Assembly: GCA_030685065.1 (NCBI GenBank) | Contig: JAUXQH010000023.1 | Location: 1-64,000 of the forward strand | DNA length: 64,000 bases | Direction: 5' to 3' | Source of the DNA: Pseudomonadota bacterium | GTDB lineage: Bacteria; Myxococcota_A; UBA796; SXON01 | Shown here: positions 34,133 to 46,861 of the stretch, piece by piece | Layout: each line of letters starts with the position of its first letter | How positions within the stretch are numbered: position 1 is the stretch's first letter | The notes under the pieces: generated by a model | Told to the model about the DNA's origin: nothing | What the model saw: only the letters and a program-made list of their open reading frames with translations | The model's database searches: none | Position numbers and translations under genes: made by a program

Positions 34133-34177
34133 CAAAAACACCAAAGCCCCGGCTGGACACGAGGTCCAACCGGGGCT
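34133..34177 (-). terminator. Rho-independent terminator after tRNA-Ala
   Basis: On the minus strand a 14-base stem (34177-34164 with 34158-34145, one G-U pair) and a five-base loop are followed by TTTGGTGTTTTTG. A stable GC stem and a T-run just after the tRNA make this the clearest intrinsic terminator in the window. Confidence 0.85.
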
Positions 34178-34182
34178 CGGGG

Positions 34183-34258
<76 letters not shown>

Positions 34259-34320: not shown

Positions 34321-35133
34321 TCAATCGAGTCCCCGCTGCTCCAGATCCTCTTCGTCCAGGCCCAGGAAGTGCCCGATCTCGTGGAGCAACGTGATGCGCA
34401 GCTCGTCCAGCAGGCCCTCCTGATCGTGCGCGACGCGCATCAGGTTCCGGCGGAACAGGAGGATGGTCGCCGGGAGCGCGCTCCAGGGGTCATGGGACGA
34501 GCGCTCGGTCAGCGCGTGCCCCGCGAAGCATCCGAGCACTTCCCCCGGGCGGGCGGGCGGATCGAATTGCCGGAGCAGCTCCACGGAGGGGACCTCGTCC
34601 ACGAGGATGGGGACGTTCTCGAGGTAGCGCTGGAGCGAGGGGTGGAGGAGGCCGATGACCTCTTCGGTGAGGGTCTCGATGGTCTCGTCGAGGAGCGGCA
34701 GGGGCGCGGGGAACGCCTCGGGGTCGATCAGCGCCGCGGCCTGGTAGTCACGCGCGGCACCGTCGTGATCGTCCCGACGCTCGCGTAGGCACGCACGGTA
34801 GTACAGCGCCTCGGGGTGGTGCGGATCGAGGCGAAGCGCGGTCAGCAGGATTCCGCGCGCCTCTTCGAACTCGCAGGCGTCGAAGAGCTCGCGCCCGAGC
34901 GCCACCATCGCGTCTACGTGCTCGGTGTCGAGCTGGACGGACATGCGCAGCGCATCCAGGCCCTCCTGGGTCTCGTCGGAGACACACAACGCCAGCCCGC
35001 ACACGTAGAAGCTCTCGGCGTCGGGTTGGCGCCCCAGCGCCTCACGCGCGAGGGCGAGGGCGCGCCGCGGATCCTCGTCGAGGAGCCCCAGGGCTTGTTC
35101 ACGGAGCTCGGAGACGGAGCGGCTGCGCTTCAT
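34321..35133 (-). CDS. TPR protein with an HExxH metallopeptidase domain
   Basis: The product has 270 residues. The N-terminal half is TPR-like (PDAESFYVCGLALC, VDAMVALGRELFDACEFEEA, PHHPEALYYRACLRERRDD). The C-terminal half is the minimal zincin of the TTHA0227/DUF1025 type with ITLLHEIGHFLGLDEEDLE: two histidines, a glutamate, and a downstream acidic residue as metal ligand. The ATG overlaps the stop of the J-like gene (ATGA). Within the chaperone operon it may cut or bind client proteins; alternatively the domain is a binding module only. Confidence 0.85.
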   Translation of the reverse strand: MKRSRSVSELREQALGLLDEDPRRALALAREALGRQPDAESFYVCGLALCVSDETQEGLDALRMSVQLDTEHVDAMVALGRELFDACEFEEARGILLTALRLDPHHPEALYYRACLRERRDDHDGAARDYQAAALIDPEAFPAPLPLLDETIETLTEEVIGLLHPSLQRYLENVPILVDEVPSVELLRQFDPPARPGEVLGCFAGHALTERSSHDPWSALPATILLFRRNLMRVAHDQEGLLDELRITLLHEIGHFLGLDEEDLEQRGLD

Positions 35134-37100
35134 TGTGTCGGTACCGGGATCGAGAGGCGCTCCTCGATGGCGGCGTAGTCCCCCGCGAAGGGCGGGAGGC
35201 GGAGCCCTCGGAACGTGCGACGGATGCAGGGTTCGGCGGAGGCGAGGTCGAAATTGGCGCCCGTGACGTCGACCCGACGCACCTGGCCGTCGCCCGTGAT
35301 CCACGTCGTGTAGACGGCTTCGGCGGTCTCCACGCTCGCGCCCGCGAAGCATGCAGCCAGGCGCGGGCGGGCACCCTGTAGGGCAGCCACGACGGCGGCG
35401 TCCCGCGCGACCCCCTTGGCGTCGGGCGCGGGGGTCCACTGCATGTCGTCGGTGAGGTCGAGCTTCACGACGCGGGCGGTGCGTTCGCCGGCGGGGAGCG
35501 TGATGGTCTCCTCGCGGGGCGCGAAGCCGTCGGCCTCGATCCGCACGACGAAGGGCTTGCCGGGCTGGGGCTCGAGAATATCGAGCTGGCCGCCGAGGCC
35601 GAAGAGGGTGCCGTCGACGAGGACACGGTCGGCGACCGGGTCGATCGAGAGCGCCAGCACGGTGGCGGGCGGTGTGCGCTGCAGGAAGAGCGCCAGCGCC
35701 GCGAGGCCGATCGTGCCGAACGCCACCGCGGCCAGGGCCGCGAAGTAGGGGAGCAGGGTCTGGCGATTGGCCTGGAGCGTCAGGGTGCGCCGCTCGCCGT
35801 GGTCGGTCACGACGGTGATCGTGCCGGCGGTTCGGCCCCGGGGCATCTGCGTCGGCAGGACGGTGACCACCACCTGCTGCTCGAGGGCCATCGGATCGAG
35901 CCGCGGCTGGCGGATCTTGAGCCACTCGCGATCGCTCGTGACGCGTCCCGGCATCTTGCCCTGGCCGACGTTGCGGACGATCAGCGTGCGGTCGAACACG
36001 CGGGCGCCCACGTTGAGGGGGATGACCTCGGGGCCATCCACCGCGAGGCGGGGCCCCAGGGTCGCGACCGTCTGCGGGCCCCCCGTGATGCCGATCGTCC
36101 GGCCGCTCACGGCGGGCGGCGCGGGGGCCCGAGCCACGCCCATGGGCGTCGCTTCGGCGGCGAGCCCACTCACGCGGGGCGGGGGAGTCGGCGTGGGGTG
36201 CGCGTCTGACCGGGCCTCGGCGGCGGCGCCACGGGCCTCGATCTTCGGCGCGCGGGCTCCGGACGGCGGGATGGTCGGCTGGAAGCCCACCTCGTGCACC
36301 GCGTGGGTGGTGCCACCGGGGAGGGGGGCCTCCCCCGTGATGGCGTCGCGCGGGCCCCCGAGGAGGCCGATGAGCGCGGCGGCGCGCTTCTCCACCTCGT
36401 CCGTGACCTCGAGCATCTCCAACCGCCGTTCGTCGTACCGCACGCGACGCTTCGGGTCGGACAACATGCGCCACGCCTCATCCAGCGCATGGAGCACCTC
36501 GGAGGAGCGCTTGAGGTCCTTGAGGCTGCGGGCCCATCGGTAGCGGTTGCGGTAGGCGTCCTCGATGGCGGCGGGCTGCGCGTTCGTGGCCACCCCGAGG
36601 ATGGCGTAGTGATCGATGGCCGTACCCTCGGCCGTAACGTCGTCGTCGGAGGCTTCGTCGCGAAGCAGGCCAGTTTCTGCGAGGATCTCCTCCAGCCGGC
36701 GCGCGACCGCGGTGTCCGCGAGGTCGAGCTGCCGCCCCTGGTGGAGGATGGCGGCCTCCGCTTGCGATGTGAGCGCGCCCGAGGAGAGCGTGCCGCGGAT
36801 GAACAGCGAGAGCACGTCGAGATTACGGCCCGCGGTGTCGTCCATCACGTGCGCGCGGTACTCGTCGAGCTGCTCCAGCATGACGCGGCGGAGCAGGCCA
36901 TTGCTCTTGATTAGGAACAAGGCCTCGAATTTGTATTTTGGATTCGACTGCTGGCCCTGGGCCCAGGTTCGGCGCTTCTTGACGACGTCGTCAAGCGTCT
37001 CGGGAGGCGCAGTCGATTCGACTCCGTAGTAGGCGAAGAGAGACGGCCGCCCGACGGATGTCAGGAAGCGCTCGATCTCATCGAGGTCGCGTCGATCCAT
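35130..37100 (-). CDS. Membrane-anchored J-like protein without HPD
   Basis: The product has 656 residues. Residues about 165-235 have J-domain character (HYAILGVATNAQPAAIEDAY, EVLHALDEAWRMLSDPKRRVRYDERR) but the HPD tripeptide that stimulates Hsp70 is absent. A proline-rich linker leads to a beta domain (about 350-440), one transmembrane helix (about 447-470) and a C-terminal PEGA-like plus AgmX/TonB-C-like beta region (KPFVVRIEADGFAPREETITLP). So an intracellular J-like head is tied to the membrane with a periplasmic tail. It lies in the chaperone operon between dnaK-like and TPR-zincin genes. Confidence 0.8.
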   Translation of the reverse strand: MDRRDLDEIERFLTSVGRPSLFAYYGVESTAPPETLDDVVKKRRTWAQGQQSNPKYKFEALFLIKSNGLLRRVMLEQLDEYRAHVMDDTAGRNLDVLSLFIRGTLSSGALTSQAEAAILHQGRQLDLADTAVARRLEEILAETGLLRDEASDDDVTAEGTAIDHYAILGVATNAQPAAIEDAYRNRYRWARSLKDLKRSSEVLHALDEAWRMLSDPKRRVRYDERRLEMLEVTDEVEKRAAALIGLLGGPRDAITGEAPLPGGTTHAVHEVGFQPTIPPSGARAPKIEARGAAAEARSDAHPTPTPPPRVSGLAAEATPMGVARAPAPPAVSGRTIGITGGPQTVATLGPRLAVDGPEVIPLNVGARVFDRTLIVRNVGQGKMPGRVTSDREWLKIRQPRLDPMALEQQVVVTVLPTQMPRGRTAGTITVVTDHGERRTLTLQANRQTLLPYFAALAAVAFGTIGLAALALFLQRTPPATVLALSIDPVADRVLVDGTLFGLGGQLDILEPQPGKPFVVRIEADGFAPREETITLPAGERTARVVKLDLTDDMQWTPAPDAKGVARDAAVVAALQGARPRLAACFAGASVETAEAVYTTWITGDGQVRRVDVTGANFDLASAEPCIRRTFRGLRLPPFAGDYAAIEERLSIPVPTQ

Positions 37101-37167
37101 TGGGGTCGAGGGTGCCTTGTATGTAGGGCGCCGTCAACCCTCGCGGGCGAGAGCATCAACGCCGGGT

Positions 37168-38817
37168 TCAGTGAATGTTGGCCGAGGCCATGCGCTTTCG
37201 CGCCGCCTCCATCGCTTCGGGCGAGAGGCCCCCCCTTAGCCGCATGGTCGCGCGTCGTGTCTGGCGCGTCTCGACGTCGGTCACGTCGACCTCGAGGATC
37301 TGGTTCAGGGTGTACCGGTACACCACCTCGATGGGCGTTCCACGCGGACGGGGCGGGAGATCGTCCAGGATGACCTCTCCGATGACCGTGACCTCGTCGC
37401 GCACCTCGCCGACGCCCTCGGTCACCTCGACGCGCACGGCGGTCATCCCGTCATAGGCATAGGCGAAGCGGCCGCGCTTCTCGCAGGGAAGCGGGGTGAA
37501 TTGCGGAATGAGGGACACGATCCGCTCGCGGAGCGCCGAGTCGAGCACGACGATCCCGAGCGGGTGCGAGGCGACGTCGGTGATGCGGACGCCGGGGAGG
37601 CCCGCGCTCGGCGTCCCTTCCGCGAAGCTCGGGGAGCTGGGCGCGCTCGGCATGGAGGCGGCCGAAGGGAACGATCGGGCGTCTGCGGTGCTCTCGGTGC
37701 GACCACGCCGTGAGAGCGCCTGGCGATAGGCCTGGATCGCGGGGTGCTTCGGGCGATGGCGGAACACCGCGGCCAACGAGGCGCCGAGGGCTACGCACTC
37801 GTCCGGGTTGACCCCGGCCACGGGCACCTTGCCGGAGAGACGTCGGAGGGTCTCCTGGATGATCGGCATCCGTGTCGAGCCGCCGGCGAGCAGCACGTCG
37901 TCGATGTCGCTCCAGCGCATCTTCGCCTTCTCGAGGACGATGGCGCAGGTATCGGCGCACTGCTCCACCAGGTCCTGGGTGAGGCTGTCGAACTCTTCCC
38001 GCGTGACCGGCACGACCGTCCGGTGCCCGCGGAAGTTCACGGGGATGACGGCGCGGGGCTTGCTCGAGAGCGAGATCTTCGCGTGCAGGCAGCGCTCGTA
38101 GAGCTCCTGATAGGGCTGCGGCTCGTCGCGAGGGTCGAGGCCGAACTTCTGCAGGAACTGCTCGGCGACGTGGTTGAGGAGCCGATCGTCGAAGTCCTTG
38201 CCACCCAGCTCCGCGTTTCCGTCCGTCGCGATGGTGCGGAGCGTGGTCCCGCGGATCTCCATCACGGTCACGTCGAAGGTGCCGCCTCCCAGGTCGAACA
38301 CGAGGAGGTTGCGATCCCCGCCGAGCCGCTCCACGCCGTACGCGATGGCCGCCGCGGTGGGCTCGTTGATGATCGACAGCACGTTGAAGCCCGCGAGTGT
38401 GCCGGCCTCGTTCGTGGCGCCGCGCTGAGCGCTGTTGAAGTAGGCGGGAACGGTGATGACCGCGTCCCGTACCTCGAAGCCCAGGGCCTCCTCCGCGTCG
38501 TCCTTCATCTTGCGGAGGATGATCGCCGACAGCTCCTGCGGAGAGTACGACTTGCCGAAGAACTCGAGGAAGTAGTTGGGCTCCCCCATGGCGCGCTTGA
38601 TGAAGCGGACCACGTTCAGCGAGTCGACCACGACCATCTTCACGGCCTCTTCGCCGACGACGCAGGCTTCGCGGTCGTAGAAGTGGATGACGGACGGGGT
38701 GGTCGGCTGGCCCTCTCCGTTCGGGAGGATCACGGGCTTGCCGTAGCGGTCGACGTACGCCATCGCGGAGAACGTGGTTCCCAGATCGATGCCGAGGATG
38801 ATGCCTTCGTCACTCAT
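37168..38817 (-). CDS. Hsp70/DnaK-family chaperone without the helical lid
   Basis: The product has 549 residues versus about 638 for DnaK. The ATPase domain is intact: GIDLGTTFSAMAYV, the INEPTAAAIAYG and VFDLGGGTFDVTVM phosphate motifs, and LLAGGSTRMPIIQ. A Ser/Pro-rich insert (about 375-405) precedes the substrate-binding beta domain (about 410-530). The alpha-helical lid is missing. It is the second Hsp70 of a five-gene operon, 93 bases after the GrpE-like gene. A housekeeping dnaK presumably exists elsewhere; the short form suggests special clients. Confidence 0.93.
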   Translation of the reverse strand: MSDEGIILGIDLGTTFSAMAYVDRYGKPVILPNGEGQPTTPSVIHFYDREACVVGEEAVKMVVVDSLNVVRFIKRAMGEPNYFLEFFGKSYSPQELSAIILRKMKDDAEEALGFEVRDAVITVPAYFNSAQRGATNEAGTLAGFNVLSIINEPTAAAIAYGVERLGGDRNLLVFDLGGGTFDVTVMEIRGTTLRTIATDGNAELGGKDFDDRLLNHVAEQFLQKFGLDPRDEPQPYQELYERCLHAKISLSSKPRAVIPVNFRGHRTVVPVTREEFDSLTQDLVEQCADTCAIVLEKAKMRWSDIDDVLLAGGSTRMPIIQETLRRLSGKVPVAGVNPDECVALGASLAAVFRHRPKHPAIQAYRQALSRRGRTESTADARSFPSAASMPSAPSSPSFAEGTPSAGLPGVRITDVASHPLGIVVLDSALRERIVSLIPQFTPLPCEKRGRFAYAYDGMTAVRVEVTEGVGEVRDEVTVIGEVILDDLPPRPRGTPIEVVYRYTLNQILEVDVTDVETRQTRRATMRLRGGLSPEAMEAARKRMASANIH

Positions 38818-38910
38818 GGCGGGCCACTCTACCGCGGTGGCGTCGGTGGTGGCACCCGCGGTGCCGACGTCGGCTCGGAGAAGGGATGCGATGCCCGAGG
38901 AGGCCCACCG

Positions 38911-39414
38911 TCATTCCTTCGGTTCGTCCGAGTCGGAGCCGCACCGATACACGGCGACTTCCTCTGCCCGGAGCAGTCGATCGCCGCGAACGAACCCGCG
39001 CTTGAGCACGGCCTGCACCTTCCAGTCCTCCGACGGCAGGGAGGAGGGGAGCACGCGCACGGCCTTGTGCATCCGGCGATCGAAGCGCGGCGCGCCCTCG
39101 CAGGGCACGACATCTCGCCGGTAGAGGAGCTCCAGGAACTCGTCCAACAGGTACTGGAAGCTGTCCGCCACGACCTCGGCGCTCATCTCCTGCTTCTGCA
39201 GGCTCTGCTGGAACCAGTTGAGGCTGTCGTAGAAGAGCAGGAGGTCGAGCAGGAACGGCTTCTCTGTCTGGAAGATGAAGTCGTCCTTGTACTGCCGGAG
39301 CTCCTCGTAGAGCTGGTCGAACGCCTTCTGTTGGACGGCATCGGTGCGCAGCCGCTCACGGAAGAGGTCTCCGAGCTCCTCGACGCGCTCTTCCAGCGTG
39401 CGGTTCTCCGACAT
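38911..39414 (-). CDS. GrpE-like nucleotide-exchange factor
   Basis: The product has 167 residues. The first 80 residues are charged helix, and the second part shows the GrpE beta-wing pattern: GAPRFDRRMHKAVRV, then KVQAVLKRGFVRGDRLLRAEEVAVY, matching the family's FDP-x-x-HEAV and GY-x-x-x-x-xLRPA elements with changes. The ATG follows the upstream TAG stop with no gap (TAGATG), so it is coupled to the Hsp70-vWA gene. Role: ADP release from one or both Hsp70s of this operon. Confidence 0.85.
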   Translation of the reverse strand: MSENRTLEERVEELGDLFRERLRTDAVQQKAFDQLYEELRQYKDDFIFQTEKPFLLDLLLFYDSLNWFQQSLQKQEMSAEVVADSFQYLLDEFLELLYRRDVVPCEGAPRFDRRMHKAVRVLPSSLPSEDWKVQAVLKRGFVRGDRLLRAEEVAVYRCGSDSDEPKE

Positions 39415-41412
39415 CTAGTTGCCCCCCAGCTCGGTCGCGAGGTTGATGAACGTCCCCTGTAGCTCGACCGACTCGTTGCAGAAGTGGTAGTCCTCAGGGC
39501 GCGAGGCGAGGGTCCGCAGGAACTCCGGCCGCACTTGCGCGCCGACGCCGATCGTGATGATGCGCCCCCCGCTGGTCCGGATGCGCGTGATTTCGCCGGT
39601 GGTCGCGTCCGGATCGTCGGGATGCCCGTCCGTGAGCACCACGTAGACGCGCTGTACGCCCGCCTTGGACTTCATCAGCTCCCGCGCGGAGGCGAGGCCC
39701 TCGGCCATGGGGGTGGAGCCGATGGGGGTCAGCCCGTCGATGGCCAGCCTGATTCGCTTCACGTCGGCCGTGAGGGGGCAGAGGACGCCGCCCGGGAAGC
39801 CGACGACGGCGATCTGACGGTTGGGGCCCAGGGACGCCTCGGCGAACGCGAGCGCGGCCTTCCGCGCCTCGTCGATGTTGCGGCCGTACATGGACCCCGA
39901 GCAGTCCATCACGAGGACGATGTTCATCGGAGCGCGGTTCCGCGCGAGATCCTCGAGGGTCACCGCGCCGGCGGCGAGGCGGTGGGCCAACGTCTGACCG
40001 GAATCGAGGTCCATCGCCTCGACTTCGACGATTCCGTTCGCGTTGTAGCGGAAGGTCACCGAGAGTCGCGACCGCGTGGCTGCGCGCGCGGGGATGCCGT
40101 AGAACTCGAAGTGCCCGAGCACGTTGCACTCGAGGGGGTCGACGTTTTCTCCCTGGACGAGCCAGAGGTCCATCGTCGTCTGGCCGTCGTGCGTGGTGAC
40201 GTAGTCGTCGCGTGTGCGCTCGCAGGGGATCCGGCTGTTACGCTCGATGATCCGGCTGTTGTAGAGCCTGCCCTCCCGATAGACGACCATGCCGAGGGAG
40301 TGGGAGGTCACGTCGTGGGTGCGGATGTCGACCGGGGGGGCCTCGCCGGAGGCGCGGGAAGACTCGATCGCCGCGGTGAGGGCGGCGCCGAGCGCCACAC
40401 ACTCGTCGGGGTTGATGTCGGTCGCCGCGTCGCGCCCGAACACGCTCCGGATCATTTCGCGGATCATCGGCATGCGGGTGGAGCCGCCCGCCAGCACCAC
40501 GGTGTCGATGTCGTCCACCGTGAGCTTCGCGTCGTCCAGCACGTCGCGCGTCAGCGCCTCGCACCGACGGACCATGCCCGAGGAGATGTCCTCGAACTTC
40601 TCGCGGGTGAGCTCGAGCCGGAGGATTTTCCCCTTGAAGTCGTAGAAGAGGTTGACCCGCGGCCGCTTGGTCAGCGAGAGCTTCGCGCTCGTGCACTTCT
40701 GCCGGAGGTCGTGGTAGGCGGCGAGGTCATCGAGCGGGTCGATGCCGTGGCGGGCCCGGAACTGGTCGGCCGCGTAGCGGATGAGCCCGTCGTCCCAGTC
40801 CTTGCCGCCGAGCTGGTGGTCACCCGTGGTGGCGAGCACGGTGATGTCGCGGCCGTCGATCTTGACGATGGACACGTCGAACGTGCCCCCGCCGAGGTCG
40901 AACACGAGGAGCCGCTTCTTCTCGTCCGGGTTGGCGAGCCCGTAGGCGAAGGCCGCCGCGGTTGGCTCGTTCAGCAACGAGAGCACGCGAAGCCCGGCGT
41001 ACTCCCCGGCGCGAATCGTGGCGCGGCGCTGCTTGTCACCGAAGTAGGCCGGCACCGTGATGACCGCCTGGTCGATCCGGTGGCCCAGGCGCAGCTCGGC
41101 GTCGTGCTTCAGCTTCGCGAGGATGAAACCGGAGAGCCGCTCCGGTGTGTAGACCTCGCCGCGGTACTCGAACGTGAAGTCCTCGTCGCCCATGTGGCGC
41201 TTGATGAACTCGACGACCTGCTCGGGGTACGCCACCGCCGACTGCTTGGCGTAGGTCCCGATGATCACCTCTTCGCCCTCGAACAGCACCACCGACGGGG
41301 TGATCCGTTCGCCTTCGGCGTTGTGCAGGATCTCGGGCACGCCGTACTTGTTGACGTGCGCGATGGCCGAGAAGGTGGTCCCGAGGTCGATCCCGACCGC
41401 GCGGGTGGTCAT
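39415..41412 (-). CDS. Hsp70 fused to a von Willebrand factor A domain
   Basis: The product has 665 residues. Residues 1-370 are a complete Hsp70 ATPase (GIDLGTTFSAIAHV, LNEPTAAAFAYG, VFDLGGGTFDVSIV, LAGGSTRMPMIREM). The beta substrate domain runs to about 490. The lid is replaced by a vWA domain (about 495-660) with a full MIDAS set: DCSGS (DxSxS), the threonine in GSTPMAEG and the aspartate in VLTDGHPD. vWA domains bind proteins through a metal ion, so this chaperone carries its own client-binding module. It heads the chaperone operon; GGAG lies seven bases before the ATG and a TAGGAT hexamer lies about 20 bases upstream. Confidence 0.92.
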   Translation of the reverse strand: MTTRAVGIDLGTTFSAIAHVNKYGVPEILHNAEGERITPSVVLFEGEEVIIGTYAKQSAVAYPEQVVEFIKRHMGDEDFTFEYRGEVYTPERLSGFILAKLKHDAELRLGHRIDQAVITVPAYFGDKQRRATIRAGEYAGLRVLSLLNEPTAAAFAYGLANPDEKKRLLVFDLGGGTFDVSIVKIDGRDITVLATTGDHQLGGKDWDDGLIRYAADQFRARHGIDPLDDLAAYHDLRQKCTSAKLSLTKRPRVNLFYDFKGKILRLELTREKFEDISSGMVRRCEALTRDVLDDAKLTVDDIDTVVLAGGSTRMPMIREMIRSVFGRDAATDINPDECVALGAALTAAIESSRASGEAPPVDIRTHDVTSHSLGMVVYREGRLYNSRIIERNSRIPCERTRDDYVTTHDGQTTMDLWLVQGENVDPLECNVLGHFEFYGIPARAATRSRLSVTFRYNANGIVEVEAMDLDSGQTLAHRLAAGAVTLEDLARNRAPMNIVLVMDCSGSMYGRNIDEARKAALAFAEASLGPNRQIAVVGFPGGVLCPLTADVKRIRLAIDGLTPIGSTPMAEGLASARELMKSKAGVQRVYVVLTDGHPDDPDATTGEITRIRTSGGRIITIGVGAQVRPEFLRTLASRPEDYHFCNESVELQGTFINLATELGGN

Positions 41413-41470: not shown

Positions 41471-42061
41471 TCAGGAACCCATCGGCGGGAAGGTGGGGCG
41501 CCACCCGAGCGCGCGCAGGGCGTCGATAACCTCGAGCAGCGGCAGCCCCAGGACGCTGTAGTAGTCGCCGTCGATGGCCGCGATGAGGTTGGCCCCCAGC
41601 CCCTCCACCGCGTATCCGCCCGCGCAGCTCGAGCCCTCTCCGGTCGAGACGTAGGCGTCGATCTCGGCGTCGGTGAGATCGGCGCGAAAGCGGAGGTGCG
41701 CGTGCGAAGCGAGGCGATGGACGCGCGCGTCCAGGCGGATGCACACGGCGGTGCTCAAGGTGTGGGTGCGGCCGCGGAGCTGGCGCAGCCGCGCGCGGTG
41801 GTCCTCCGGATCGTCGGGCTTCCCGAAGGCGTGTCCATCGATGTGCGCGACCTGGTCCGCGCCGATGACGATGGCACCCGCGACCTGGACCGCGTTCGAC
41901 TTTGCGTCCGCTCGCGCCACGGCGAGGGCCTGGGGGGAGGCGGCGAGGATGCGCGATTCGTCCACGCCCGGGGAGACGCCCGTGCATGCGATTCCGGCGG
42001 CGCGGAGGAGCGCGAGCCGCGTGGGGCTCGTGGAGGCGAGGACGATCGGGACCTGGCGCAT
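41471..42061 (-). CDS. maf: Maf-type nucleoside triphosphate pyrophosphatase
   Basis: The product has 196 residues. Family motifs are LASTSPTRLALLRAAGI, the VDES segment, VIGADQVAHIDG and FGKPDDPEDHRARLRQLRGRTHTL. Maf proteins hydrolyse non-canonical or modified NTPs. It is divergent from the UDG-fold gene with 55 bases between starts. The C-terminus contains the usual GYAVEGLGA and YYSVLGLPL segments, so the protein looks complete. Confidence 0.95.
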   Translation of the reverse strand: MRQVPIVLASTSPTRLALLRAAGIACTGVSPGVDESRILAASPQALAVARADAKSNAVQVAGAIVIGADQVAHIDGHAFGKPDDPEDHRARLRQLRGRTHTLSTAVCIRLDARVHRLASHAHLRFRADLTDAEIDAYVSTGEGSSCAGGYAVEGLGANLIAAIDGDYYSVLGLPLLEVIDALRALGWRPTFPPMGS

Positions 42062-42116
42062 GCCGCCGCGTCTATCCCTTCGATCGCCTCGAGGTTGCCA
42101 GGATAGGGGAGGGCGG

Positions 42117-43016
42117 ATGTCCGACCTCTCCTCCGAGCTCGCCGCGCTGGTCGCGGACACGCTGGCCGCCGCGGAGTCGTGGCGCGTCACCGGCGCCTTC
42201 CTCGCGTCGACCGAGCCGCTCGCCGGGCTCCCGGCCGCGGAGCCGTGGCCCGTCGGCGCAGGGCAGCGTCCGCCTCCGCCACGCGTCGAGGCGCCGCGCC
42301 CCGTCGCGCCTCGCCCGATGGAGGCCCGCCCTCCGGCCCGCCCCCCGGCCCCCTCCCCGATGGAGGCCGCGCGGCCCGCGGTCCCGCCCCGCCCCGCCGA
42401 ACCAGCCCGGGTCGCGCTAGGCGCGGCGCGTCCGGCCGACACGGGACCCGCCGCGGGCATCGGGGCCCCTGCGCCCAACCTCGCGGGGCTGTTCGGGGCG
42501 AAGTGGCAGCAGTCGATCCGGAAGCCCGACGACGAGATTGCCCAGGTGCTGGCGGGCACGGCGCAGTGCCCGGCGTGTGGCGCCGAGGCGACGACCCTGC
42601 GAGGGGCCGGGGCCGCCGAATCCAAGCTCGCGGTCATCGCCGCGGGGCCGGACGGCCAGCGTCTCGTGGGCGACGCGGGCGTCATGTTCGACAAGATGCT
42701 CGTGCACGTCCTCGCGCTCGAGCGGGGCGATGCGTGGGTGCTCGAGGCGAACGCCTGCGCCACGTCGGGCGCGCCCGCCGGCACGTGCCGCGGCGTGCTG
42801 CTCAAGCAGCTCGAGATCGTCGGGCCTCGCCTCCTGCTCGCCATGGGTGGCGCGGCGGCGGCGATCGTGGGCGTGCCCACCGTGACGCGGGGCGACTGGG
42901 CGCGGTGGCGCACGTCGGACGTGGTGGCCACCTTTCACCCCGTGGAGCTGCTGGCCCGCCCGGCGGAGAAGGGCGCCACGCTGAAGCACCTCACCACGCT
43001 GCGGGGCCGGCTGTAG
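42117..43016 (+). CDS. Degenerate uracil-DNA-glycosylase-fold protein
   Basis: The product has 299 residues. A proline/arginine-rich N-terminal half (about 55-115) leads to a family-4/5-like UDG fold: CPACG at about residue 150 (only one of the cluster cysteine pairs is evident), then LAVIAAGPDGQRLV where active enzymes have GEAPG, IVGPRLLLAMGGAAAAIVG and VVATFHPVELLARP near the end (the HP motif is kept). The catalytic acidic GEAPG is missing, so base excision is doubtful. GGAGG lies just upstream of the ATG. Confidence 0.7.
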   Translation: MSDLSSELAALVADTLAAAESWRVTGAFLASTEPLAGLPAAEPWPVGAGQRPPPPRVEAPRPVAPRPMEARPPARPPAPSPMEAARPAVPPRPAEPARVALGAARPADTGPAAGIGAPAPNLAGLFGAKWQQSIRKPDDEIAQVLAGTAQCPACGAEATTLRGAGAAESKLAVIAAGPDGQRLVGDAGVMFDKMLVHVLALERGDAWVLEANACATSGAPAGTCRGVLLKQLEIVGPRLLLAMGGAAAAIVGVPTVTRGDWARWRTSDVVATFHPVELLARPAEKGATLKHLTTLRGRL

Positions 43017-43085
43017 GGCGGACCCAGGTAGGGCGGACCCGGTTAGGCGCCGGTCAGGCGGACCCAACTGCGGGTCGCCCCGGCG

Positions 43086-44213
43086 CTACTTGCGCTTCTT
43101 CGGAACCCGCACGTCCTGGAGCAACGCGCCGAGGGTCCCGAACGTACCGCCCGTCGTGAGCGACTCCTGGCGGCGCGGCTGGTTGTCGGCGGCCATCGGT
43201 GTGTCATTCTCCTCGACCTGGCGGATGCCGAGGTCGACCCGCTTGCGAGCGAGGTCGACCTGGAGCACGCGGACCCGGACGGCTTGACCTTCCGTGACCG
43301 CCGAAGCCGCCGACTCGACGCGCTTCTTGGACAGGTTGGGGAGCCGGACCAGGCCCTCGACGCCCGACGTGATGCGCACGAAGGCGCCGAACTCGCGGAT
43401 GCCGGTCACGACGCCGTCGTAGACCTCGCCCTCGACGACCGTGGTGATGGCGATGTCCGCCGCCGCGCGTGCCTCGATCTCCGCGACGGCGCGGTGGGAG
43501 ACCTTGGCCTCGCGTCCGCGCACGTCGAGCACGCGGAAAGCGAGGGAACGACCGATGTACGCGTCGAGATCCGCCTCGGGCTGGTGGTCGATCTGCGAGT
43601 TGGGGCAGAACGCCTTCACGTCCCCGGAGAGCAGCACCAGGAACCCCGCTTCGTTGCGGCTGAGGACCTTCCCCTGCACGGGGATCTTGCTCTCGATCGC
43701 CTCGTCGAGCAGCGCGCTCGTGCTGTCGCCGCCGAGGCTACGGGAGAGTCGGATGTCCCCGTCCTTCATCGAGACGATGTAGGCGTCGAGGAGGTCCCCC
43801 ATGGCGACGTCGGGCTTGAGCTCGGCGCGATCGATGCTCGCATCGGCCTTGGCGCCGACGCTCACGAACGCGAGGGTCGGCGTGAGCCGCGAGATCGCGC
43901 CCCGGATGCGTTGGCCCTGCCGGAGCGGCCCGGTGGGGCGGGCGGGCGCGAACGCCGCCATCATCGCGGCGACCTCGGCGGGGTCCATGTCGGCGATCGA
44001 GCGGAGGCCGTCGAGATCCGTGGCCGGGCGGGGGGACGGCGGAGCGAGCTCCGGCGCGGCGGGAGCACGCGACGACGCGCCACTCTCGTCCTGCCCGTGC
44101 ACGCTGCGGATCCACGAGGTCGGAGACTCCGGTTGGGCGTCCCCCCCCGCCGCGTCGCCGTTGGGATTCTGTGTCTTGCGGCGAAGGATCCCGCGTACCC
44201 GTTGCTCGTCCAT
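43086..44213 (-). CDS. Three-repeat S1-domain RNA-binding protein
   Basis: The product is 375 residues from ATG at 44213, which has GGAG eight bases upstream. Three S1 repeats are visible: QRIRGAISRLTPTLAFVSVG, VQGKVLSRNEAGFLVLLSG and VYDGVVTGIREFGAFVRITSGVEGLV. The last is the clearest, with GAFV and GLV turns. An acidic/Ser-rich N-terminus (about 1-95) and a basic tail (PKKRK) flank them. Shorter than ribosomal protein S1; it may bind ribosomes or mRNA as an accessory. Confidence 0.88.
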   Translation of the reverse strand: MDEQRVRGILRRKTQNPNGDAAGGDAQPESPTSWIRSVHGQDESGASSRAPAAPELAPPSPRPATDLDGLRSIADMDPAEVAAMMAAFAPARPTGPLRQGQRIRGAISRLTPTLAFVSVGAKADASIDRAELKPDVAMGDLLDAYIVSMKDGDIRLSRSLGGDSTSALLDEAIESKIPVQGKVLSRNEAGFLVLLSGDVKAFCPNSQIDHQPEADLDAYIGRSLAFRVLDVRGREAKVSHRAVAEIEARAAADIAITTVVEGEVYDGVVTGIREFGAFVRITSGVEGLVRLPNLSKKRVESAASAVTEGQAVRVRVLQVDLARKRVDLGIRQVEENDTPMAADNQPRRQESLTTGGTFGTLGALLQDVRVPKKRK

Positions 44214-44385
44214 CGAGAGAACTCCGTGGATCGTTCGACCCGAGCGGCGCGGACTATCCCCACGGGCAGCAAAACCGCAAGCTGCCGACACGTCCGGGCC
44301 CTGAAGACATGGGCCTTGTGGACGGGCTCCAGCCATCGTACGATCCCGCTCGCCCCAACCCTATTTAGTATCCACCGGAGCACTC

Positions 44386-44598
44386 ATGTTGGTCGTTTCC
44401 ATGAAAGAAGCTGGAATTCTCCGAATTGGTGATGTCGATGTCTACATTGGTGAGATCCGAGGCGGGCAGGTGAAGCTATGCGTCCGCGCGCCACGGGAGA
44501 TTCGCATCGAGCACCTGGAGCCCGTCCCGGGCTCGGGCAAGCATGACGACCGGGCAGGCGCCCCCGAGATGCTCCGCTCGCGCATGGGCCGGCGATAG
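44386..44598 (+). CDS. csrA: CsrA-family translational regulator
   Basis: The product has 70 residues. The CsrA fold is clear (MLVVSMKEAGILRIGDVDVYIGE, then VKLCVRAPREIRIEHLE). The start matches MLIL-type families and APREI matches APKEV, but the RNA-contacting arginine that normally follows VH reads histidine here (EHLEP), so binding may differ. The C-terminal tail is longer and basic. GGAG sits five bases before the ATG, inside an A/T-richer leader. A hairpin (about 44292-44323) precedes it. The first codons are noticeably A/T-rich for this window. queA lies directly downstream. Confidence 0.85.
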   Translation: MLVVSMKEAGILRIGDVDVYIGEIRGGQVKLCVRAPREIRIEHLEPVPGSGKHDDRAGAPEMLRSRMGRR

Positions 44599-44610
44599 CC
44601 CCTCGTCTAC

Positions 44611-45659
44611 ATGGCGGGGCCTCCGGCGGGGAGGGCCACGAGGACCCCGCGGGCGGGTCCGGCGAGCCGGATGACGCGCTCGAGCGCGCGCTCGCTCCGT
44701 ACGACTTCGACCTCGCCGACGACCGGATCGCCCGACACCCGCCGCCCGAGCGCGATGGTGCCCGGCTCCTCGTGGTCGGCCCGCCGCACGCGGATCGTGC
44801 GATGCTCGACCTGCCGGGGTTGCTCGAGCCCGGTGATCTCCTCGTCGTAAACGACATCCGGGTGCACCACGCCCGGCTGCGGGCACGGCGGGAGAGCGGC
44901 GGAAACGTCGAGGTACTCCTCGCCGGCGGCGACGAAGCGCTGGTGCGCCCGTCCCGTCGGTTGCGAGAGGGGGAGCGCCTCGTGTGCGGGCCCGGGCACG
45001 TCGTGCTGCACTCCCGCCTCCCGGACGGGCGGTGGCGGGTGGCCTGCGAGCCGGATGTCGACACGCTCACGTCCGCGGCCGGCGAGCTGCCGCTCCCCCC
45101 CTACTTCGGCCGGGCCCCCACGCCGGAGGACGAGGTTCGCTACCAGACCGTCTACGCCCGTCACGGCGGTCAGCTGCGCGCGGCCGCCGCCCCGACGGCC
45201 GGCCTCCACCTCACCCCCCGGATCTTCGCCGCGCTCGCGGACCGCGGCATCCGGCGGGCCAGCCTGACGCTGGAGGTTGGGCTCGGGACCTTCCGCCCGC
45301 TCGGCGCGGAGCAGATCGCGCGCGGCGCGCTGCACTCCGAGCGGTTCGACGTACCCGCCGAGACGTGGGAGGCCGTTCGTTCGGCGAAGCGCGTCATCGC
45401 GGTGGGCACGACCGTGGCCCGCGCCCTGGAGAGCGCCACGGGCCCCGGCCCCGGAGCGACCGATCTCTTCATTCGCGAGGGGTACACGTTCAAGAGGGTC
45501 GACGCGCTCCTCACGAATTTCCACCTGCCCCGCTCGAGCCTGCTCATGCTGGTCTGCGCGTTCGGCGGGCGGGAGCGGGTCCTCGACGCCTATCGGCACG
45601 CCGTGTCGTCCGATTACCGCTTCTACTCCTACGGCGATGCGATGCTCCTGACGCGTTGA
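44611..45659 (+). CDS. queA: tRNA preQ1 ribosyltransferase-isomerase, 5' end frameshifted
   Basis: QueA homology begins at YDFDLADDRIARHPPPER (44700) and continues through LEPGDLLVVNDIRVHHARL to TNFHLPRSSLLMLVCAFGG. No ATG, GTG or TTG lies in that frame upstream of a GTG at 44772, which would cut off about 24 conserved residues. An ATG at 44611 is in the neighbouring frame, and one extra G in the run at 44628-44631 would join it to give about 349 residues, the family's usual length. So the gene carries a one-base lesion or an error. QueA transfers a ribosyl group from SAM to preQ1-tRNA; tgt follows 20 bases later. Confidence 0.85.
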
Positions 45660-45667
45660 TGGGGTAA

Positions 45668-46861
<1,194 letters not shown>

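Follow-up and report, generated by a model that had tools for sequence, protein, structure and literature searches.

The 64,000-nucleotide stretch analysed here (the window) opens contig JAUXQH010000023.1, which belongs to an 8,092,759-base draft genome (92% complete, 5.8% contamination) of the Myxococcota_A lineage. Five consecutive genes on its minus strand, at 34321–41412, encode, in order of transcription, an Hsp70 fused to a von Willebrand factor A (vWA) domain, a GrpE-like protein, a second Hsp70 that lacks the lid (the lidless Hsp70), a membrane protein with a J-like domain, and a tetratricopeptide repeat (TPR) protein with a Zincin_1 domain (the TPR-zincin). Each product is supported by Pfam. 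The fusion (665 amino acids [aa]; 39415–41412) matches HSP70 (E = 3.5e-134) and VWA (E = 1.8e-16; residues 497–646), the GrpE-like protein (167 aa; 38911–39414) matches GrpE (E = 4.3e-12), the lidless Hsp70 (549 aa; 37168–38817) matches HSP70 (E = 4.3e-119), the J-like protein (656 aa; 35130–37100) matches DnaJ (E = 5.1e-7), and the TPR-zincin (270 aa; 34321–35133) matches Zincin_1 (E = 1.7e-24). The ATG of the GrpE-like gene abuts the TAG of the fusion gene with no gap, the next two gaps are 93 bases (GrpE-like to lidless Hsp70) and 67 bases (lidless Hsp70 to J-like), and the start of the TPR-zincin gene overlaps the stop of the J-like gene as ATGA. A promoter scan of the five-gene unit gave no promoter-like site, and no terminator-like site was found within the unit.

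The fusion consists of a nucleotide-binding domain (approximately residues 1–355; 40348–41412), a substrate-binding beta domain (approximately residues 365–482; 39967–40320) that is preceded by a polar linker, and a vWA domain (approximately residues 495–662; 39427–39930) into which the chain passes where the lid would start. In the lidless Hsp70, nothing aligns to residues 531–600 of DnaK, and the chain stops shortly after the first lid residues. Residue positions in the Hsp70s are given here as Escherichia coli DnaK numbers, and residue counts cover uncut frames of more than 400 aa. The ATPase residues Lys70, Glu171, Asp194, and Thr199 are present in 46/46 fusions and in 33 or 34 of the 34 lidless Hsp70s; with the Pfam HSP70 matches, they place both proteins in the Hsp70 superfamily. 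The curated DnaK cut-offs are missed by both (NF001413, 436.6 and 411.7 bits versus 648; TIGR02350, 426.4 and 401.9 bits versus 822.55).

The HPD (His-Pro-Asp) trigger of J domains is considered a general feature of how Hsp70s cycle. The published target of the HPD aspartate is Arg167 of DnaK, and substitutions of this residue are reported to raise basal activity somewhat and to make J stimulation ineffective (PMC7289447). Both Hsp70s of the window have serine at this position. Among the related fusions (n = 46), the residue is Lys in 20, Ala in 14, Ser in 7, Arg in 3, Asn in 1, and Gln in 1, and among the lidless Hsp70s (n = 34) it is Ser in 33 and Gln in the one from the Poribacteria locus L040. 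The hydrophobic interdomain linker is likewise replaced: VLLL of DnaK corresponds to IRTH in the fusion and VRIT in the lidless Hsp70 of the window, and mostly to I-R-T-H and V-x-I-x, respectively, across their relatives. For comparison, nine full-length Hsp70 sequences were extracted from the host genome (leaving out L152 and L160, which have no fitting frame, and L159, which has 423 aa and Gly at 167), and the seven outside the module all retain both Arg167 and the LLD linker. Asp481 was dropped as a member of the lost contact network, because Asn occupies this position in four of those seven canonical proteins as well. The host Hsp70 L128 (contig C112) lies in a 1105-aa open frame, in which the beta domain is followed by a long tail; a standard lid sequence is absent.

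The J domain of the window's J-like protein (residues 163–223; 36432–36614) has the J fold, as judged from Pfam DnaJ (30.1 bits versus a cut-off of 27.8) and a profile match of 98.95%, and lacks HPD. HPD was found at the J site in 0/29 J-like proteins of the related loci; that of L070 has an HPD string away from the J site, and the J region of L032 does not align. In the host genome, 13 of the 16 Pfam J domains carry HPD. All 29 J-like proteins have a membrane segment. The single hydrophobic segment of the window's protein starts at about residue 448 and is modelled as a helix at residues 450–472 (35685–35753), directly after a PapD/MSP-like beta domain (approximately residues 347–448; 35757–36062). 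This beta domain, recognized by fold search, fills the list obtained for the model, so that the J fold and C-terminal parts were not reached. A possible second J-like region at approximately residues 20–90 (36831–37043) is uncertain. The GrpE-like protein belongs to the GrpE family (46.5 bits versus a cut-off of 25.8). Gly32 of Hsp70, which we take to be a residue of the exchange-factor loop, is retained in 45/46 fusions and 34/34 lidless Hsp70s.

The vWA domain carries a complete metal ion-dependent adhesion site (MIDAS; Asp503, Ser505, Ser507, Thr567, and Asp595 of the fusion). All five residues are present in 45/46 fusions, and the remaining one (L034) has Ser for Thr. The vWA sequence matches solved vWA-containing chains with E values down to 1.4e-8, and the order of strands and helices in the C-terminal part of the modelled fusion fits a vWA domain; the model is of middling quality (predicted local distance difference test score [pLDDT] 74, predicted template modelling score [pTM] 0.49), and it and the model of the J-like protein are both of single chains. 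A preliminary description of this locus had read the five same-strand genes as one unit with these motifs and this coupling, both Hsp70s as devoid of a lid, the fusion as having a vWA domain in its place, and the membrane J-like protein as devoid of HPD. These points hold, on the coordinates, Pfam matches, and start-stop junctions for the unit, the alignment to DnaK and the VWA match for the Hsp70s, the Pfam DnaJ match and hydrophobic segment for the J-like protein, and the profile match, MIDAS, and modelled strand order for the vWA domain.

The fusion is a near-universal, single-copy trait of one order, as follows from surveys of the class, the phylum, and protein records. When residues 370–665 of the fusion were used as the query (E ≤ 1e-25), 60 of the 71 genomes of the class contained it, in one copy each: 60 of the 63 in the same order and none of the 8 in other orders. 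The three genomes of the order without a match are 80–82% complete. In a draw of 377 genomes from the phylum, with six candidates scored per genome, 60 had a match and all of these lie within the order. A protein search with the vWA part gave 267 proteins, and all 120 of those listed have both Hsp70 and vWA Pfam domains. The host genome also has a canonical GrpE–DnaK–DnaJ set on contig C170, so the five-gene module supplements the general machine.

A scan of contigs yielded 73 loci. The fusion is full-length in 46 of them, comprising 44 loci of the window's type and two from Poribacteria. Linkage was counted in the 44 loci of the window's type, at each step in those with contig room downstream. 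The GrpE-like gene follows within 100 bases of the fusion in 43/43 loci, the lidless Hsp70 gene comes next in 40/40, and the J-like gene comes next in 30/32. Of the two loci where no J-like gene was called, L035 encodes a diverged J-like protein that was found by profile. Such conservation of order indicates that the arrangement is more than chance, and the linked, dedicated chaperone module that the preliminary description proposed is in this respect borne out. The constant core is four genes: those of the fusion, the GrpE-like protein, the lidless Hsp70, and the J-like protein.

The fifth gene, which had been expected to stay linked together with the GrpE-like and J-like genes, is outside this core. 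The TPR-zincin is a clear family member (PF06262, 86 bits versus a cut-off of 22.4), and its HExxH motif (HEIGH, residues 251–255; 34369–34383) is kept in 23/24 cases. Its gene comes next in 20/26 loci with room, in 19 of these within 50 bases of the J-like gene; in L042, an alpha/beta hydrolase gene occupies its usual place. All five genomes of genus g2 keep the fusion, and none has a zincin match anywhere at E ≤ 1e-15. The zincin is therefore accessory, being absent downstream in 6/26 loci and from 5/5 genomes of genus g2.

Relatives of the lidless Hsp70 extend the pattern to Poribacteria, where 23 loci were compared. Position 167 of their lidless Hsp70s is Gln in 21 and His in 2 (Arg in none), and wherever the C-terminus is covered, the lid is truncated at the same point as in the window's protein. 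A GrpE-like frame matching the module profile is present in 18/23 loci (E from 6.6e-58 to 7.8e-43), and 22/23 have one to seven same-strand downstream frames that resemble the J-like protein of L040 (88 frames in total); in L041, the contig ends before any such frame. HPD is absent from the first 120 residues of all 88. The L040 protein itself begins with a J-like region and also contains a beta domain and two hydrophobic segments, a layout near that of the window's protein. An FGE-sulfatase domain, which is C-type lectin-like, is present in 8/9 examined Poribacteria J-like proteins (L040 being without). Frames of this kind stand in tandem after the pair of GrpE-like and lidless Hsp70 genes at L056 (11664–21368), as also at L047, L052, L054, L057, L058, and L072, and they are possibly docking tags with variable partners. 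The fusion was found in 2/22 Poribacteria genomes searched, and the other 20 have the lidless Hsp70 without it. A tree built on the nucleotide-binding domains places the Poribacteria fusion with the Poribacteria lidless Hsp70 (support 99), apart from the fusion of the order, and the vWA parts of the two Poribacteria fusions (L040 and L041) and those of the order are alike (E = 3.5e-44 and 4.9e-42). Either gene conversion or two separate fusion events may account for these relationships. A group of Planctomycete relatives (L061, L062, and L063) has Asp at the Arg167 position and no hydrophobic linker, and may also be free of the J trigger.

We tentatively propose, with a confidence that falls somewhat short of even, that these genes specify a dedicated Hsp70 machine, docked at the membrane, that probably operates without the standard J-domain trigger and grips its clients by means of the vWA domain. 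The chief argument for such independence of the J trigger is that its two sides show matching losses, namely of HPD in the J-like protein and of Arg167 and the hydrophobic linker in the Hsp70s. The preliminary description did not include the loss on the Hsp70 side, which alters the probable mechanism. In the cycle that we infer, the GrpE-like protein would recharge both lidless-type Hsp70s as exchange factor, and the HPD-less J-like protein would bind the Hsp70s as a membrane docking part rather than as an ATPase trigger; Pam16 is a precedent for an HPD-less protein in a tethering role (PMC12953747). The vWA MIDAS, in the position of the lid, would select the client and grip an acidic residue of it, by analogy with CbbO, in which the MIDAS binds an acidic residue of Rubisco and is needed for Rubisco activation and for substrate sensing by the ATPase (PMC4660213). 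ATP hydrolysis would then remodel the client, with exchange and hydrolysis, either basal or client-stimulated, setting the pace of the cycle, and the zincin would be an optional add-on.

Several observations weigh against this proposal. Arg is retained at 167 in the fusions of L034 and of two Poribacteria loci, and Lys, the commonest residue there in fusions (20/46), might still pair with the aspartate. The lidless Hsp70 of L035 is diverged and has Gln for Glu171, and in L017 the lidless Hsp70 gene is followed by an opposite-strand gene and not by a J-like one. For the fusion, the fold search returned a list taken up by Hsp70 domains and did not reach the vWA part. Resemblance of the Poribacteria proteins to J domains is weak: the profile match is 57% against canonical J domains and has E = 0.007 against that of the window, and none of the nine proteins submitted to Pfam gave a DnaJ match at E ≤ 0.05. 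In addition, the host Hsp70 L150 on contig C85 is lidless, yet it keeps Arg167 and the LLD linker and adjoins an HPD J domain; lid loss alone is therefore not the mark of the module, whereas trigger loss is. L117 and L150, both on C85, provide a natural comparison for the Hsp70s of the module.

The fusion also retains residues of the J surface (Asp or Glu at 326 in 44/46, Val218 in 43/46, and Asn170, often with the Lys at 167), which again counts against the proposal, since it might respond to HPD J proteins from other loci of the genome. This is the basis of the strongest alternative, an ordinary Hsp70 cycle with a particular location: both Hsp70s would be triggered in trans by HPD J proteins encoded at other loci, with the 13 HPD J domains of the genome as candidates, and the J-like protein of the module would contribute only the position at the membrane. 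We consider this unlikely, although it keeps a real chance. Arg167, Glu217, and the hydrophobic linker are gone from both Hsp70s of the window, whereas the seven other Hsp70s of the genome keep Arg167 and the linker and six of them keep Glu217, a residue mostly lost across the module. The J surface of the lidless Hsp70 has moreover changed in charge, with Lys at 326 in 30/34 and Arg at 217 in 25/34. Under a machine free of the J trigger, the fusion would be the likelier partner of the J-like protein, given its more acidic surface at 326.

That same charge change, and the encoding of the two Hsp70s together in every locus with room, would suit a division of labour in which the fusion alone is the working chaperone and the lidless Hsp70 is an exchange or regulatory partner, similar to Hsp110. 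This appears improbable, because the lidless Hsp70 keeps not only the ATPase residues but also those of the peptide pocket (Val436 in 33/34 and Phe426 in 33/34), because a GrpE-like gene already stands beside it, and because it occurs without the fusion in most Poribacteria genomes searched. The pocket of the fusion is bulkier, with Met at 436 in 33/46.

The module shares with the canonical DnaK–DnaJ–GrpE system the Hsp70 ATPase and peptide-binding beta domain, a GrpE family member, and the J fold. It differs in lacking the lid, HPD, the trigger arginine, and the hydrophobic linker, in having an added vWA domain, and in scoring below the DnaK cut-offs, and membership in the canonical DnaK/DnaJ families is set aside on these grounds. 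The nearest parts list described in the available sources is the HSP70 theme of the GAP1-N2 systems, which has an HSP70, GrpE, a second HSP70 in a subset, and a beta-domain protein fused to DnaJ or TPR (PMC7159879). Unlike that theme, the module has a second Hsp70 that keeps its beta domain, and vWA is not mentioned for the theme in the available part of that source.

These likenesses, and the recurrence in PMC7159879 of FGE-sulfatase as an effector domain, as found on 8/9 Poribacteria J-like proteins, would fit a conflict (immune) system akin to GAP1-N2 and vWA-MoxR systems, with the Hsp70 parts assembling on a sensed invader at the membrane. Such a role is rather improbable, since a single copy in 60/63 genomes of the order with conserved neighbours fits a housekeeping set. 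Pfam showed neither a GAP1/GTPase core nor a MoxR AAA+ partner in the five genes or the ten nearest flanking frames (for MoxR, the rest of the genome was not searched), and anti-phage defence was set aside after PADLOC gave one marginal match (E = 0.0096). CoCoNuT systems were also set aside, as their Hsp70-like parts accompany McrB-type GTPases (PMC11090510). Membrane quality control with the vWA domain as client selector and the zincin as the protease or holding factor, as the preliminary description envisaged, is very improbable despite the usual place of the zincin gene and its well-kept HExxH, because the gene is missing from genomes that keep the fusion and zincin relatives occur in 7/8 fusion-free genomes of other orders.

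Other known systems share single traits. MoxR-vWA systems (CbbQO and NorQD) likewise pair an ATPase with a vWA domain (PMC4660213, PMC13036017), but the motor of the module is an Hsp70 and not an AAA+ hexamer. Pam16 (Magmas) is an HPD-less J-like protein that leaves its Hsp70 unstimulated and instead has a tethering and regulatory role at the membrane, together with an Hsp70 and a GrpE homologue; it differs in its other domains and in pairing with the HPD J protein Pam18, which has no counterpart in the module cluster (PMC12953747). In Myxococcus xanthus, the PilZ-DnaK proteins CsdK1 and CsdK2 are Hsp70s fused to a regulatory domain and stabilize a client; that domain is PilZ rather than vWA and, judging by the construct names, lies in the N-terminal part (PMC10313047). 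The SglK/GrpS pair of Myxococcus does not fit by its description, as SglK is a PRK00290 protein that complements E. coli dnaK (PMC8265645). The terms "vWA" and "von Willebrand" are absent from the main text of the same survey of 15 M. xanthus Hsp70s (PMC8265645), and no description of an Hsp70-vWA fusion was found in the open-licence literature searched. The individual families of the module are known.

In broader terms, the module could represent a second way to run Hsp70, a lidless lineage without the J trigger that uses HPD-less J-like proteins as docking tags and in which a vWA domain replaces the lid as grip; we regard this generalization as possible but doubtful. If true, it would be an Hsp70 counterpart of the MoxR-vWA remodelling chaperones, present across an order and echoed in Poribacteria. 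Hsp70s that retain the ATPase residues but lack the arginine, linker, and lid, together with an HPD-less partner, make J-free Hsp70 action directly testable, and the module also allows the vWA domain to be tested as a client grip for an Hsp70 motor.

Directly downstream of the module and on the same strand, at 34144–34258, are a tRNA-Ala gene and a terminator-like hairpin. Upstream, at 41471–46861, lie Maf, a UDG-type frame, an S1-domain protein, and queuosine genes; frames of this Maf cluster are upstream in 36/46 loci, and they were set aside as parts of the module, being judged ordinary synteny. Five of the loci (L003, L004, L011, L033, and L038) come from metagenome-assembled records titled Klebsiella pneumoniae or Bifidobacterium breve, which look mislabelled.

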